Assembly (NCBI RefSeq): GCF_016278385.1
Contig: NZ_JADQBY010000005.1
Coordinates: 1 to 64,000 of the forward strand
Direction: 5' to 3'
Origin: Methanolobus sp.
GTDB taxonomy: Archaea > Halobacteriota > Methanosarcinia > Methanosarcinales > Methanosarcinaceae
DNA: 64,000 nucleotides
Below are positions 4,278-12,465 of the stretch, piece by piece. The number at the start of each line of letters is the position of its first letter. Positions within the stretch are counted from its first letter, which is position 1. Under the pieces are notes generated by a model. That model was not told the origin of the DNA. It saw only the letters and a program-made list of their open reading frames with translations, and did no database searches. A program made the position numbers and the translations under genes.

Positions 4278-4928
4278 TTATTTCATAAGTTCCAATGCTA
4301 CACGAGCTGCATCTGCTGCATTTTCTGCTGTTGCATCTGCGCCTATCTCTGCGATCCATCCATCTGAAACTGGTGCACCACCGAACATGATCTTTACAGA
4401 ATCTCTGAGGTTTTCTTCCACAAGAGCTTCCACTGTGTCTTTCTGACCCAGCATAGAAGTTGTCATGAGTGCAGAACCTACAAGAAGGATTTTGCTGCCC
4501 TTGAGCTTTTTGATCTCATCCATGATGTCATCATTTGGTACGTCCACACCAAGGTCAACTATCTTGAAACCGTTTGCACCGAGCATTGTTGATACAAGGC
4601 GGTGACCGATATCATGAATGTCCCCTTCCTGTACAAAAGTGATGGCTGTTCCAACACCTTCTCCAGGCTTCTCTTTTGCAAGTAAAGGAGTGAGAATTTC
4701 CATTGCAGCATTCATTGCCTTTGCAGACATCATTATCTGCGGAAGGTAAATTTCGGCTGCTTCGAACTTGTCACCGATTATTTTCATTCCTACGGAAAGA
4801 CCTCCATCGATGGCATCAAAAGCACTGATGCCTGCGTCAAGGGCTTCCTGTGTAATTGCCGCACAACCATTTACGTCTTGATTCACAATTGCGTCTCTAA
4901 GTTTGTCTAACATTTCCTGATTTCCCAT
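4278..4928 (-). CDS. mtmC: Monomethylamine corrinoid protein MtmC
   Basis: A 216-residue cytoplasmic methyl carrier. An N-terminal helical methionine-synthase-like cap (about 1-90) is followed by a B12-binding Rossmann domain with the DxHxxG motif (DIHDIG, His105 as lower cobalt ligand) and the GSALMTTSM segment. It takes the methyl group from MtmB and gives it to MtbA. A GTG nine bases upstream is in frame but is part of the AAGGTGG ribosome site, so the ATG at 4928 is preferred. First gene of the mtmC-mtmB unit. The long upstream region suggests a long 5' leader. Confidence 0.95.
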   Translation of the reverse strand: MGNQEMLDKLRDAIVNQDVNGCAAITQEALDAGISAFDAIDGGLSVGMKIIGDKFEAAEIYLPQIMMSAKAMNAAMEILTPLLAKEKPGEGVGTAITFVQEGDIHDIGHRLVSTMLGANGFKIVDLGVDVPNDDIMDEIKKLKGSKILLVGSALMTTSMLGQKDTVEALVEENLRDSVKIMFGGAPVSDGWIAEIGADATAENAADAARVALELMK

Positions 4929-4937
4929 TAAATCCAC

Positions 4938-5407
4938 CTTTTGTATTTTTCACGTTCTTTTTTTAAAGTTGTTCTTACAGAATTGCATCTACCAGTACAA
5001 CTGTTTCTGAAAACAACTACTTTAAGAGAAGTTATCCAATTGATAACAACTGCACATAGGAGATTTAACTGACAGCATATAGCATAATTCATGCCAATTT
5101 TTCAACATTAACAGTACATAACTCCTCAATTATTACTTTTAAAAAGGTATGAACATTTCAGTTTCTGATTGATTATTAAAAGGGAGCCGTACTTATCATA
5201 GCCCTTGTAAATTATCACATGTCTTGTGAATTGTAAACATCAATGTGAATTTACCTCTAAATTAGATTAATATAAGGTTAGGTTAAAGCGTTATTAGATG
5301 AAAGTAAAAAGGTTTTTGTAACACTAAATAAGGATTTTGACCAATGGATTTAAGGAAACTAACAATCAAATGTCCTGAAAATAGGACATTACAACTGAAA
5401 AGGGAAG
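4938..5407. promoter_or_regulatory. Divergent control region between mtmC and the msr regulator genes
   Basis: About 470 AT-rich bases without a convincing gene. It must hold the promoters for mtmC (leftward) and for the first regulator (rightward). I see a perfect inverted repeat GTTATC-CAATT-GATAAC at 5031-5047, extended outward to AGTTATC/GATAACAACT, roughly 100 bases upstream of mtmC, and a TATA-like stretch near 5267-5277. Methyltransferase genes in Methanosarcina have long 5' leaders controlled by Msr proteins; whether the inverted repeat is an operator is inference. Confidence 0.5.
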
Positions 5408-6214
5408 ATGAGGGGTATGAAAACGTCACTAATAAATACTGTTTGGTTTTCTGAAAAGAGAAAGAATCTGTTGCTACTATTATATGAAGGGGAAAGAGAT
5501 CTCGAACAAATAAAAAAATCACTTAATGTAACGACCAGGTCCATAATGCCCCAGATAAAAACACTGAAGAATAACAACCTTATAATGCAGGAACAAGATC
5601 AATTCAGTTTGACCACTATAGGAAAAACAATTATTAAGAACATGCTACCATTTCTTTGTACATCGAGAATTATTGAAGAAAACAAAGACTTCTGGGCCAG
5701 CAGGAATTTTGATGCAATACCCCCACATCTTTTCAGTAAAATAAGGTACCTTGGGCATTATTTTCTCATAGAACCCGATATAAACCATATGTTTGAGCTT
5801 CCCAGAGAATTTGTTGATAACATTCCTAAATCAAAATCAATTATGACTTTTGTTTCATACCTTCATCCAATGTTCCTTTCCCTTTATTTGAAAGCAGCCC
5901 AATCGGGAGCAAAGATATCACTTTTTGTTTCAGAGGTAGCTTTGGAAAAAATGAAGAATGAATACTTTGAACAATTCAATGAATTGATGAAAATGACAAA
6001 TGCAACTCTTTTCCTTTGCAAAGAAAACCCAAAAATACCAATGGTAACAGTGACTGATTGGTTTAGTTATATTTGCCTTTTCAATGATGAGGGGAGATAT
6101 GACCACAGAGATATAATCAGTTTTGACGAGAGTTCATTAAAGTGGTGTAATGAACTGTTCGACTATTATAGGACAAATTCAGAAAAGCTCTGTCAAATAA
6201 CAGAGGTTGAATAG
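5408..6214 (+). CDS. Msr/FilR1-type winged-helix regulator (DUF1724), copy 1
   Basis: A 268-residue protein. The N-terminus (about 8-80) is a winged-helix DNA-binding domain of the ArsR type (VWFSEKRKNLLLLLYEGERD), followed by a FilR1/DUF1724 domain ending with the family pattern LFNDEGRYDHRDIISF and SLKWCNELFDYY. Msr proteins in Methanosarcina switch methyltransferase operons on or off. It is paralogous to the next gene and divergent from mtmC, so control of mtmCB is likely. ATG at 5417 is an alternative start. The gene ends in TAG. Confidence 0.85.
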   Translation: MRGMKTSLINTVWFSEKRKNLLLLLYEGERDLEQIKKSLNVTTRSIMPQIKTLKNNNLIMQEQDQFSLTTIGKTIIKNMLPFLCTSRIIEENKDFWASRNFDAIPPHLFSKIRYLGHYFLIEPDINHMFELPREFVDNIPKSKSIMTFVSYLHPMFLSLYLKAAQSGAKISLFVSEVALEKMKNEYFEQFNELMKMTNATLFLCKENPKIPMVTVTDWFSYICLFNDEGRYDHRDIISFDESSLKWCNELFDYYRTNSEKLCQITEVE

Positions 6215-6249
6215 GAAAAATATTATTTGGGGAAGGGGGGACAGATACA

Positions 6250-7035
6250 ATGGAATCATCATTAATTGAAACCATTTGGTTTTCTGAAAAAAGAAGAAAA
6301 ATATTATTACTACTACTGGAAGGACCAAAAAGTCCCGAGGAAATGAAGACGGAATTTGGTGTTGATTGGCGTGCATTAATACTTCCTCTTAAAGAGTTAA
6401 AGGAAGAAGAACTGGTCTGCAACCCGGAAGAGGACTATGAACTATCCAATATTGGAAAACTGATAGCAGAAAACGTAAGAACAATTGAAGGTGTTTTAAA
6501 GCTTTTTGAAAAAGATACTGACTACTGGGTTAAAAGGGACCTAAACACAATCCCGGGTTATCTGCTGGACAGAATCGGAGAAATAGAAGACTCTATAATT
6601 GCAGAACCAGAATTGAACGATATGTTCGAACCCTCCAAAGAATTTATTGCACCCCTCCTGAATTCAAAATATGTAAATTCTGTGTTTTCTATATATCATC
6701 CATTTTATCCACCATTTTACAGCAAACTTGCAGAAAACGGAACTGAAATATCAATTATTTTTACTGGATCTGTGTTTAAAAGAATGCAGGAAGACAGGCA
6801 AGAAGAACTGAAGAATCTGCAGGATTCAGAAAATATAAAATTGTTCTTATACGAAAAAGATTTGGTTCCTCCTTCCATTATAATTACCGATAACTTGTTT
6901 TCTGCCAGTTTTTTCAATGACAAGGGAATGTATGACCATAAAGACATCATGAGTTTTTCCCAAAAATCCCTTAAATGGGGAGAGGAACTGTTCGGATATT
7001 ATCAAAAAATGGCAAATGAGATTTATAAAGAATGA
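6250..7035 (+). CDS. Msr/FilR1-type winged-helix regulator (DUF1724), copy 2
   Basis: A 261-residue paralogue of the preceding gene with the same order: winged helix (IWFSEKRRKILLLLLEG near residue 7) then FilR1/DUF1724 domain (FFNDKGMYDHKDIMSF, SLKWGEELFGYY). The ATG is preceded by GGGGGG nine bases upstream. The gap to copy 1 is 35 bases, so they are probably co-transcribed; the downstream sensor kinase follows after 56 bases. Methanosarcina species use pairs of Msr proteins for one methyltransferase locus, which fits this tandem. Confidence 0.85.
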   Translation: MESSLIETIWFSEKRRKILLLLLEGPKSPEEMKTEFGVDWRALILPLKELKEEELVCNPEEDYELSNIGKLIAENVRTIEGVLKLFEKDTDYWVKRDLNTIPGYLLDRIGEIEDSIIAEPELNDMFEPSKEFIAPLLNSKYVNSVFSIYHPFYPPFYSKLAENGTEISIIFTGSVFKRMQEDRQEELKNLQDSENIKLFLYEKDLVPPSIIITDNLFSASFFNDKGMYDHKDIMSFSQKSLKWGEELFGYYQKMANEIYKE

Positions 7036-7091: not shown

Positions 7092-9950
7092 ATGGAACAG
7101 AATGAGATATCAATAAAAATCAAGTTGATCATATACATAGTAGTTAGTGTTTTTTTGGTACTTATTGTTTCAACTGCCGTCAGCATCACAACCGTGACAG
7201 CACAACAAAAAGAACTGGCACATCTTCAATCCGTGGAAATGGCAAAGGATTATGCGAATCAGTTCGATGGAGATATGAAGGCAAATATGGCTATTGCACA
7301 AACCATTGCCAAAACAATGGAAATGTACACGGCTGCCGACAGGGAAGAAGTAAACAATATTCTCAGAAATGTTCTTGAAACATATCCTTCTCTTACGGGA
7401 GTTTATGTAGGATACGAACCAAATGCCTTTGATGGAAAGGACAATGAATATATCGATACCCCAGACCATGATTCCACCGGGAGGTTCGTACCTTACTGGA
7501 ATACTATTGAGGGAAAAATAGGAATTGAACCCCTGGTAAACTATGACACCCAGGATTACTATCAGCTTCCGAAAATAACACACGAAGATATTGTTACAGA
7601 ACCTTATTTTTACCAGGGTATCTTCATGGTAAGTTACGATGTACCTATCTTTAAAGATGATAAATTCATAGGTGTTGCAGGTGTTGATGTATCTCTTGAT
7701 TATATCGATGATGTGGTAAGTGACATAAAAGCCTTTGACACAGGATATGCATTTGTGACAGGAAATACCGGTATTCTGGTATCTCATCCTGAATACAAAG
7801 AGGGAATGGGCACCCATACTCTTTACGATTTTGACATACCTGAAATATCAGCTGCAGCAGATGACATCAAAATTGGAAAGAGCGGAAGTGTTGAAACTAT
7901 CGATCCTGCAACAGGCAAAGATGTAATAATGTTCTACGAACCTGTGAGGACAGGCAACTACTCTTTTGTGCTTGTAGTCCCAAAGGAAGAAATGTTTGCC
8001 GGAGTCACTAAGCTCAGGAAAACTCTAATTATCATATCTATGATTTCAATATGTTTCATGGGCTTGGTCTCTTATTTGATAGCAACATCGATAACTTCTC
8101 CTATAGATGAAATAGTTAAGAACTTTAGAAATATTGCTCAGGATGCCGTTGACGGTAAATTGGATACAAGAGCAAAAACAAATGTAGAGAGAGACTTCAA
8201 AGAAATTCCAATCGGGCTTAATATGATATTGGATGCTGTGATAGCACCGATACGGGAATCTATCAGAGTTACAAATGCCCTTGCAAAAGGAGAACTTGGA
8301 GCACGTACCGAACTGGAACTAAAAGGGGAATTCAAGCAGCTGGGAGATACATTGGATAATTTTGCAGATTCACTGAACAATATTATTGCAGATTCCAACA
8401 ATGTACTTAATGCTATACAAAAAAATGATTTTTCTCGCAATGTTCAGATTCATGGTGAAGGTGATTTCAATATCCTCACTGACGGAATTGAAAAAACAAG
8501 AAACTCGTTAGATTTAGCTATTCACGAGCAAAAAAAAGCTGAGAAGGCTCTGAAAGATTCTGAAAGAAAATTCAGAACTTTGTTTGAAAGTCCAAATGAT
8601 GCAATATATCTTACTGATATGCAAGGAAATATCCTGGAAGTAAATGAAGTCACATGTTCAAGAATGGGATATTCTCGCGATGAATTCCTTTCTCTGAAAC
8701 ACATGGATATTGATGCTTCCAACCGCGGAAAGGATTTTCTTAGAATTATAAAAGAGCTATCCAAGATCAAAAGCAACCTATTGGAAACAATCCACATGCG
8801 AAAAGATGGTACTATCTTTCCAGTAGAATTGAGTAGCCGGATGATAAAGTTTGATGGGCATAAAGCAGTTATTACCATTGCAAGAGATATCAGTAAAAGA
8901 AAACAGACGGAAAAAGAACTCAAAAAATATGCTGACGAACTTAAGCATTCCAATGAGCTTAAAGAAGAAATGGAGAGCATAATCAATAACAGCCCCGTTA
9001 TAGTCTTCAAATGGAAGACAGAAACTGACTGGCCAGTGGAATTCGTTTCAGATAATATCACAAAACTTGGCTATACTGTAGAAGATTTTACATCGAATAC
9101 TATCAAGTATGCCGATATCATACACCCGGATGATAGTAAAAGAACACATTTGCATATATCCAATTATTATATGAAAAAGGATGCTCGACTGAACTACGAA
9201 TATAGAATATACACCAAATCAGGCGATGTAAGATGGGTAGATGAAAGGACGTTCACAAGACGTGATAATTACGGCAGGATCACATTGCAGGGAATCATTC
9301 TGGATATAACTGAACGTAAAAAAGTAGAAGAAGCACTTATTCAGACAGAGAACATACGCAAGAAAGAAATACATCACCGTGTAAAGAACAATTTACAGGT
9401 AATTTCAAGTCTGCTCTATCTTGCATCTGACAATTTCGAGGAGCAGGACGTAATAGACGCTTTTTTGGATAGTCGCAACCGTGTGCGTTCAATGGCTCTG
9501 ATACATGAAGAATTGTACCAATCCAAGGATATGACAAGTATTGACTTTTCTGATTACACGGAGAAATTGATGAATTATCTATCCAGATCATGCGGAACTG
9601 AAAAAAAGGATATTAAGCTTGTTTCAAAAATAGAGGATGTTTATCTGAATGTTGATACAGCTGTTCCACTTGGTATGATAATCAATGAACTTGTTTCAAA
9701 CTCACTAAAACATGCTTTCCCTGAAATGAAAAAAGGGGAAATAAGTGTGGAACTCAAAGTTCTGAAAAATGCTTTTTTATTGATAATAAAAGATAATGGA
9801 ATTGGTATCTCCCCGGATATAGATTACAGAAATACAGAATCTCTAGGTTTACAGCTTGTGACCACGCTGGTTGACCAGATTGATGGCACCATTGAACTGA
9901 ATTCAATTCATGGAACTGAGTTTATCATAAATTTTGCAGAGAGGAACTAA
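7092..9950 (+). CDS. Membrane sensor kinase: dCache, HAMP, two PAS, HisKA_2, HATPase
   Basis: A 952-residue sensor. A transmembrane helix (about 12-34) is followed by a large extracellular dCache-like domain (about 45-305, with VYVGYEPNAFDG and VAGVDVSLDYI), a second helix (312-331), a HAMP linker, PAS domains near 490-600 and 627-740, a HisKA_2 phosphoacceptor box (KEIHHRVKNNLQVISSLL near 757) and a HATPase domain (NELVSNSLKHAF near 864, DNGIGI). It should sense an external ligand and phosphorylate a partner, most likely the response regulator directly downstream. Linkage to mtm/pyl genes suggests methylated amines as the cue; that is inference. Confidence 0.9.
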   Translation: MEQNEISIKIKLIIYIVVSVFLVLIVSTAVSITTVTAQQKELAHLQSVEMAKDYANQFDGDMKANMAIAQTIAKTMEMYTAADREEVNNILRNVLETYPSLTGVYVGYEPNAFDGKDNEYIDTPDHDSTGRFVPYWNTIEGKIGIEPLVNYDTQDYYQLPKITHEDIVTEPYFYQGIFMVSYDVPIFKDDKFIGVAGVDVSLDYIDDVVSDIKAFDTGYAFVTGNTGILVSHPEYKEGMGTHTLYDFDIPEISAAADDIKIGKSGSVETIDPATGKDVIMFYEPVRTGNYSFVLVVPKEEMFAGVTKLRKTLIIISMISICFMGLVSYLIATSITSPIDEIVKNFRNIAQDAVDGKLDTRAKTNVERDFKEIPIGLNMILDAVIAPIRESIRVTNALAKGELGARTELELKGEFKQLGDTLDNFADSLNNIIADSNNVLNAIQKNDFSRNVQIHGEGDFNILTDGIEKTRNSLDLAIHEQKKAEKALKDSERKFRTLFESPNDAIYLTDMQGNILEVNEVTCSRMGYSRDEFLSLKHMDIDASNRGKDFLRIIKELSKIKSNLLETIHMRKDGTIFPVELSSRMIKFDGHKAVITIARDISKRKQTEKELKKYADELKHSNELKEEMESIINNSPVIVFKWKTETDWPVEFVSDNITKLGYTVEDFTSNTIKYADIIHPDDSKRTHLHISNYYMKKDARLNYEYRIYTKSGDVRWVDERTFTRRDNYGRITLQGIILDITERKKVEEALIQTENIRKKEIHHRVKNNLQVISSLLYLASDNFEEQDVIDAFLDSRNRVRSMALIHEELYQSKDMTSIDFSDYTEKLMNYLSRSCGTEKKDIKLVSKIEDVYLNVDTAVPLGMIINELVSNSLKHAFPEMKKGEISVELKVLKNAFLLIIKDNGIGISPDIDYRNTESLGLQLVTTLVDQIDGTIELNSIHGTEFIINFAERN

Positions 9951-9951
9951 A

Positions 9952-10362
9952 ATGGATGAAATAGAAGTCAATAATGCAAAGATACTTGTTGTTGAGGACG
10001 AAAATATTGTGGCTTTGGAGCTAAAGAAAAGACTGAAAAAACTTGGGTATCAGGTTTCCAGTGTTGCATCAACCGGAAAAGAAGCAATTAACAAAGCTGA
10101 AGGGTTCCTTCCAGATCTTGTGATAATGGACATCAGACTAAAAGGAGATATGGACGGAATTCAAGCAGCTCAGACGATTCGTGAAAGGTTCAATATACCA
10201 ATAATATATCTTACTGCTCATTCGGACAATGAAACACTTAAAAGAGCTAAACAGACAGAACCTTATGGATATATTTTAAAGCCTTTTGAAGAAGACGATC
10301 TTCGAACTGCAATCGAAATAGCACTTTATAAGCATCAGATGGAGAATTCTCCAATAAAATGA
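9952..10362 (+). CDS. Single-domain response regulator (CheY-like receiver)
   Basis: A 136-residue receiver domain with no output domain: VVEDENIVALELKKRL holds the acidic pair, DLVIMDIRLKGDMDG the phosphoacceptor Asp, YLTAHS the Thr, and YILKPFE the Lys. The ATG at 9952 follows the kinase stop codon by one base and has GAGG just ahead inside the kinase end, so the pair is translationally coupled. Receiver-only proteins relay the signal by protein contact; here the Msr regulators or another protein could be the target. Confidence 0.9.
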   Translation: MDEIEVNNAKILVVEDENIVALELKKRLKKLGYQVSSVASTGKEAINKAEGFLPDLVIMDIRLKGDMDGIQAAQTIRERFNIPIIYLTAHSDNETLKRAKQTEPYGYILKPFEEDDLRTAIEIALYKHQMENSPIK

Positions 10363-10481
10363 GCAATATTTGAATTCATCTGGAAGTTTTGAAAGCTTAT
10401 TCGAGAAGAACATTGAATTATTAGAGAGAATTTGAACTTTTTGTTTCACATTAAATTTTTTAAAACATTCATTCAGATGTT

Positions 10482-10662
10482 ACAAATTACCATACCCTAT
10501 GACAATTCACATATCACGCAAATAATAGCACCAAATTATGCTATATATTATTCTGTTCTAGAATAAAGTATCCCTTTTATAAAGGGGTCTATATCCATAG
10601 GCAGGAATACGGGTCAGTATTCCTGCACTTCCCAAAAATTAGCACTTTTGTTGGAAGGCATA
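10482..10662. repeat. Direct repeat, copy A: structured element upstream of pylS
   Basis: About 180 bases that recur, with roughly 80 percent identity by eye, 229 bases downstream. Shared words include GACAATTCACA, GCAAATAATA, CTATATAT, TCTGTTCTA, GGGTCTATAT and CAGTATTCCTGC. This copy has a TATA-like CTATATAT near 10540, then a hairpin CCCTTT-TAT-AAAGGG (10572-10586) and a perfect 10-bp stem GCAGGAATAC/GTATTCCTGC with a 6-base loop (10601-10626). Could be a promoter plus small RNA, or a leader element. Confidence 0.75.
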
Positions 10663-10710
10663 CAATTATTATAGTTGAAATTAATAATCTTTATCAATTT
10701 ATTGGATATT

Positions 10711-10889
10711 GCAAATTATCAAACCACATGACAATTCACATGTCATGCAAATAATAACACCGAATTATACTATATATCATTCTGTTCTAAAACAAAATAT
10801 CCCTTAATAAGGGTCTATATTCATATACAGAGGTACGAATCAGTATTCCTGCGCTTCCCAATAAATCATCGATTTTGCCGGAAGGTATA
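10711..10889. repeat. Direct repeat, copy B: structured element upstream of pylS
   Basis: Second copy of the element at 10482-10662. The first hairpin is kept with changed bases (CCCTT-AAT-AAGGG, 10801-10813). The second stem is weaker because its left arm reads AGAGGTAC, while the right arm CAGTATTCCTGC is unchanged. TATA-like CTATATAT lies near 10769. Copy B ends about 250 bases before pylS and runs into GAAGGTATATATAAG, a good archaeal BRE/TATA candidate for the pyl operon. Confidence 0.7.
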
Positions 10890-11022
10890 TATAAGAACCA
10901 CAGTCAGTTATAAACACAAACTATAAATACTGCAGATTATGGACAATATATATATATATCGATAACCAAGATTAACATGTTTCTTTAGTCGATACAAAAT
11001 ATCGACATAATTAGATCAATAA

Positions 11023-12465
<1,443 letters not shown>

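Follow-up and report, generated by a model that had tools for sequence, protein, structure and literature searches.

The stretch analysed here (the window) comprises 64,000 nucleotides of contig NZ_JADQBY010000005.1, from the 2.9 Mb genome of a Methanolobus-type archaeon, and contains two tandem copies of an intergenic element, predicted to be a small RNA gene, in front of the pyrrolysine operon. On the plus strand, two FilR1-type (Msr-like) regulators (5408-7035), a sensor kinase (7092-9950) and a response regulator (ending at 10362) are followed by the two repeats and then by pylS, pylB, pylC and pylD. The first gene 3' of the predicted RNAs, pylS (11140-12465), encodes pyrrolysine--tRNA(Pyl) ligase (NCBIfam NF007083, 721 bits). 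The minus strand carries mtmC (4278-4931), the monomethylamine corrinoid protein gene, and mtmB with a PYLIS_1 element (Rfam RF01982; 3562-3661). Since pylT sits on a different contig (C50:14392), the possibility that the copies are tRNA-Pyl or a remnant of it was rejected. A tRNA called by ARAGORN at 10415-10506 on the minus strand, overlapping the promoter region of copy A, has a four-base anticodon and no proper anticodon, and looks spurious.

Structure and putative promoters of the two copies

An earlier sequence-only reading had claimed two tandem copies, 229 bases apart, each with its own TATA-like box. Repeat alignment bore this out: the promoter halves (10476-10576 with 10705-10805, spacing 229) share 85% identity and the second halves (10585-10638 with 10811-10864, spacing 226) share 81%, while the TATA boxes CTATATAT lie at 10541-10548 in copy A and at 10770-10777 in copy B. 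The distance from TATA box to the first hairpin is about 24 nt, which places the expected archaeal start site at the foot of that hairpin, and the start of copy A near 10570 was predicted from this spacing. Copy A would span 10570-10640 and copy B 10799-10866, both on the plus strand and with uncertain 3' ends; the covariance model matches cover 10584-10633 (70.7 bits) and 10810-10859 (55.8 bits), respectively.

The predicted RNA consists of a hairpin (P1), the single-stranded box 1 GGGUCUAUAUCCAUA, a second hairpin (P2) and the single-stranded box 2 CACUUCCC. In copy A, P1 lies at about 10572-10587, box 1 (GGGGTCTATATCCATA) at 10584-10599, P2 (GCAGGAATAC/GTATTCCTGC) at 10601-10610 with 10617-10626, and box 2 (CACTTCCC), which is complementary to Shine-Dalgarno (SD) sequences, at 10626-10633; the same parts of copy B lie at 10801-10813, 10810-10825, 10827-10852 and 10852-10859. 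As described in the earlier reading, the P1 arms differ between the copies yet still pair (CCCTTT..AAAGGG versus CCCTT..AAGGG), and P2 is perfect over 10 bp in copy A and weaker in copy B, where ACAGAGGTAC/GTATTCCTGC contains a mismatch and G-U pairs. The folding z-score was -3.9 for copy A (2 of 200 shuffles as good) and -0.9 for copy B (35 of 200), so that copy B by itself is no more stable than chance. Over 18 homologues, P2 covaries, with 90.6% of cells paired and 17 cells changed on both sides; none of 500 shuffles reached either value, and slid controls were 36-51% paired. We also considered an additional stem that would close the element from outside; it seemed plausible on inspection of G044, G050 and G056, but proved inconsistent overall and was discarded.

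The promoter core of copy A, AATTATGCTATATAT (10534-10548, plus strand, including the TATA box), contains the 13-mer AATTATGCTATAT, which is identical to the mtmC promoter core (5077-5089, minus strand), and the core of copy B, AATTATACTATATAT (10763-10777, plus strand, likewise including the TATA box), is one mismatch away from it. With up to one mismatch, these three sites were the only matches in the window, against 0.14 expected. In another genus, probably Methanococcoides, a similar sequence is found 5' of mtbC and of a methylamine-type permease gene. Upstream of each core, on the plus strand, lies an operator-like palindrome, exact 5' of copy B (ATGACAATTCACATGTCAT, 10728-10746) and with two mismatches 5' of copy A (ATGACAATTCACATATCAC, 10499-10517); ATGACAATTCACATGTCAT with up to three mismatches has only these two sites in the window (0.04 expected). 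The palindrome is likely a regulator site, for which the adjoining FilR1-type regulators are candidates. TATA-like boxes for pylS itself were found downstream of both copies, at 10886-10893 and 10922-10929 (plus strand), the latter (TATAAATA) presumably belonging to a separate pylS promoter 3' of both RNAs; the pylS TATA box is also kept in RNA-less Methanolobus genomes.

Homologues in two genera

We searched the genomes of relatives with a covariance model of the element (R1), the check that had been proposed for the sequence-only reading, and covarying homologues were indeed found. Of the 26 other Methanolobus genomes, 17 gave an R1 match, in almost every case 5' of the pyl promoters, and G056 carries a further copy elsewhere in addition to its pyl-linked one; the remaining Methanolobus genomes gave no recognisable copy even with permissive filters. 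Matches were also obtained in five of six genomes of a second genus, which we infer to be Methanomethylovorans. There the RNA is unlinked to pyl and stands between opposite-strand genes with its own TATA box; this standalone position suggests a separate gene and speaks against a role as cis leader of pylS. With putative promoters of their own, covarying homologues and a standalone position in the second genus, the proposal of two small RNA genes made in the earlier reading is the best supported. No convincing R1 copy was detected in any other genus of the family; in Methanosarcina genomes there was no match better than an expectation value (E) of 0.01 and no locus shared among them.

The two boxes are near-invariant across the homologues of both genera and P2 is variable, the pattern expected for an antisense RNA. 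Four genomes with two copies each (G042, G059, G061, G063) have a decayed pylS-proximal copy, in which the boxes are lost and the promoter survives. The copies match no Rfam family (best permissive E-value 1.5, on the opposite strand), and the RNA is not reported in the main texts of the literature searched; they belong to a putative small-RNA family that those texts do not describe. G070, a second-genus genome without the main copy, contains two weak, diverged relatives (L202, G070:C81:25107; L211, G070:C210:7958), each with a TATA box, and these possibly hint at a larger family of sibling RNAs. In a Methanolobus vulcani-type genome, two pylS genes lie at contig ends (among L016 at G062:C9, L069 at C16 and L088 at C4) and the small RNA is on a third contig, adjoining a pylS end and pylB, an arrangement that probably reflects an assembly break within duplicated pyl operons.

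Predicted pairing with mtaC1 and an acetate permease

Weak R1 matches in RNA-less genomes revealed mtaC as a candidate target, as many of them corresponded to the antisense strand of this gene, whose product is the methanol--corrinoid protein MtaC (NCBIfam). Over 14 nt, box 1 (10585-10598 in copy A) is perfectly complementary to the mtaC start AUGGAUAUAGACCC, and the SD sequence of mtaC, GGAGGU, pairs with ACUUCC of the RNA. In the window's own genome as well as in G042, this 14-mer has no exact occurrence other than in the RNA and, in antisense orientation, at the start of mtaC. For the ranking of genes, 850 kb were sampled from the own genome and about 690 kb from G065, which has its own, different RNA; the samples were chosen to include the contigs of suspected targets, so that the ranks hold against the other sampled genes and not as a blind draw, and the gene starts were called by a simple script, some of them wrongly. 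By box 1 duplex energy, mtaC1 ranked first of 750 genes in the own genome (-24.9 kcal/mol) and first of 624 in G065 (-24.0, the next being -17.4).

A search with the motif GGAAGTG..TATGGAT, the complement of both boxes in messenger order, returned the start of a YaaH/GPR1-type acetate permease (PF01184) in nine genomes. This start, GGGAAGTGA(T/C)..AACTATGGA or a close form, is present in 25 of 27 Methanolobus and all six second-genus genomes, and is absent from every other genus of the family examined. We then scored 160 reciprocal-best ortholog pairs from both genera, each gene with its own RNA; as a result, mtaC1 came first (-60.4) and the permease second (-48.6), followed by -42.4, and box 1 alone gave -48.9 for mtaC1 versus -25.7 for the next gene. 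In neither genome did any of 60 shuffled versions of box 1 reach the observed energy. When the whole RNAs were cofolded with either target, both genomes yielded the two-box clamp, in which P2 stays closed. In this analysis mtaC1 ranked first of 624 genes in G065, where the permease was fourth; in the own genome with copy A, the permease ranked second of 752. Conserved single-stranded regions complementary to the translation starts of unlinked genes, mtaC1 and the permease, are present in two genera.

Judged from the paired sequences, mtaC differs to match where box 1 of the second genus differs. Second-genus RNAs with UAAAUCC are predicted to pair with their own mtaC (GAUUUA) at -20.8 to -25.2 and with Methanolobus mtaC at -14 to -18, and the predicted cost of swapping partners between the genera is about 6-7 kcal/mol for these RNAs and about 4.5 for many of those from Methanolobus. 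Within the second genus, G066 has GAUGUA instead of GAUUUA in mtaC and UAUAUCC in the RNA; both partners thus differ, and the pairing runs over 16 bp.

Two Methanolobus genomes without the main RNA, G048 (L115/L422, C156) and G064 (L118/L431, C1:962990), possess a TATA-preceded intergenic locus carrying GGGGUCUAUAUCCAUAAAACUACCUCCUUC, a nearly complete antisense of this region of mtaC that fits the start as well as the SD sequence GGAGGUAG exactly. The locus is differently built, with GGGGUCUAUAUCCAUAAAACUACCUCCUUC folded into a large loop and followed by a terminator-like hairpin. We take this RNA-like locus, whose transcription is putative, as independent support for the targeting of mtaC.

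We therefore favour, with a probability of about 0.6, a methylamine-co-regulated small RNA (sRNA) that would act in trans by clamping the SD and the AUG of the mtaC1 and permease messengers. Each copy would be a gene under a separate archaeal promoter of the methylamine-gene type, and its RNA, some 70-80 nt long, would pair antisense at translation starts, box 2 on the SD and box 1 on the start codon, with P2 intact between them. The pairing with mtaC1 would involve 14-15 bp at the AUG, where P1 opens, and 6 bp at the SD; on the permease messenger, 7-9 bp would cover the SD and 6-7 bp the AUG. If produced along with the methylamine genes, the RNA would lower the translation of messengers for methanol and acetate use. 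The copies, the covarying P2, the conserved boxes, the specific complementarity and the common promoter core are observed, and it is inferred that the RNA is transcribed, responds to methylamines, forms these duplexes in vivo and represses its targets. It is tentative, at slightly worse than even odds, that the RNA directly enforces a substrate hierarchy through mtaC and the permease, that RNA and target co-evolved in the two genera and that the G048/G064 RNA serves the same end.

The choice among methanol, methylamines and acetate in methylotrophic methanogens is explained mostly through transcription factors, and to our knowledge targets have been established for very few small RNAs of archaea. 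If the proposal is correct, an RNA switch would reduce the use of other carbon sources while the cells grow on methylamines, and the predicted direct targeting of mtaC from beside the pyrrolysine genes would open the post-transcriptional control of substrate choice in methane formation to direct tests.

A short open reading frame (ORF; 11045-11098, plus strand, continuing past 11140) stands directly before pylS and overlaps its start. The ORF precedes pylS in Methanolobus and Methanomethylovorans-type records, overlapping the pylS start or ending close to it, and all 29 unique sequences encode a peptide ..NHNWILxYLGF followed by an in-frame UAG (pyrrolysine) codon. After the UAG comes a conserved E-(L/M)-x-x-K or, in a second group, K-(I/V)-L-E-R-S-stop, and the differences before the UAG are mostly at third codon positions. 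A natural guess would be that this is a leader peptide which senses pyrrolysine and links the translation of pylS to read-through of the UAG; our literature searches for a pylS leader peptide with a UAG found no description.

Alternative readings and known systems

Several observations weigh against the clamp on mtaC1 and the permease. Box 1 pairs poorly with mtaC (-13 to -15) in G041, G050 and the pyl-linked copy of G056, and with the full-length RNA in the own genome mtaC1 ranks only sixth of 752 for copy A, where P1 must open, and fourteenth for copy B. The strongest predicted partner in that genome is the start of a malic enzyme gene (GGGAAGTGGATTAAAATGGATAAAGACCC; G000:C19:18003-18032, L235), which was rejected as a conserved target since its orthologs do not keep the site. 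Eight RNA-less Methanolobus genomes (G043, G046, G048, G049, G053, G057, G060, G064) keep mtaC and, G049 excepted, the permease start, so that the RNA is not the sole reason for the conservation of these starts; in mtaC, coding constraint contributes as well. Seven of eight substitutions in the boxes preserve pairing through G-U, and transition bias alone could nearly explain this pattern (P 0.0003 to 0.1, according to the assumed bias), so the wobble-preserving changes are suggestive only. The persistence of the starts without the RNA, the weak box 1-mtaC pairing in several genomes and the comparable scores of other genes in one genome are what would be seen if a genuine small RNA had another function, binding a protein or other mRNAs, with the mtaC and permease matches incidental or secondary. 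We consider this unlikely, as the same two genes lead the ortholog-pair ranking in two genera with diverged RNAs, and the RNA and mtaC differ in step both between and within genera.

The absence of a clear terminator 3' of either copy is a further point against a discrete trans-acting RNA, and transcripts might thus run on into pylS. Together with the position directly 5' of pylS in nearly all RNA-bearing Methanolobus genomes, this would suit a riboswitch or leader of pylS in cis. However, separate TATA boxes for pylS lie downstream of the copies and occur in element-less genomes too, the second-genus element lies away from pyl between opposite-strand genes, so that the linkage is not conserved, and the predicted pairing of the boxes is poor at the starts of both pylS (-15.7) and the leader ORF (-6.7); a function in cis is thus improbable. 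The better conservation of the promoter half (85% versus 81%) and the loss of the boxes, but not the promoter, from the pylS-proximal copies of G042, G059, G061 and G063 would even be compatible with a mainly duplicated promoter/operator region whose transcribed part is passive, a reading made very improbable by the covarying P2 and the nearly invariant boxes over two genera. The trans-acting clamp on mtaC1 and the permease remains our preferred reading.

Among known systems, PYLIS_1 is likewise a pyrrolysine-related RNA element in the same window, but it sits inside a coding sequence (mtmB), unlike the intergenic copies. In Methanolobus psychrophilus R15, of the same genus, differential RNA sequencing detected 195 intergenic small RNAs, and tRNA-Pyl lies far from pylS (Li et al. 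2015, PMC5378194); the main text of that report, as distinct from its supplementary table, describes no small RNA beside pylS. The closest parallel is sRNA162 of Methanosarcina mazei, which masks the ribosome-binding site and start codon of the regulator MM2441, shifts the methanol/methylamine switch and acts on the methyltransferases indirectly (Jager et al. 2012, PMC3510493). The R1 search of the Methanosarcina genomes, which involved no alignment with sRNA162 itself, gave no convincing match, and the copies are not assigned to the sRNA162 family. Both would represent the archaeal trans-acting type, with a single-stranded region on the ribosome-binding site and start codon and a methanol/methylamine link, here as a prediction. 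In contrast to sRNA162, the RNA described here is a small two-hairpin RNA with a methylamine-type promoter at the pyl locus, and its predicted target is not a regulator such as MM2441 but mtaC itself.
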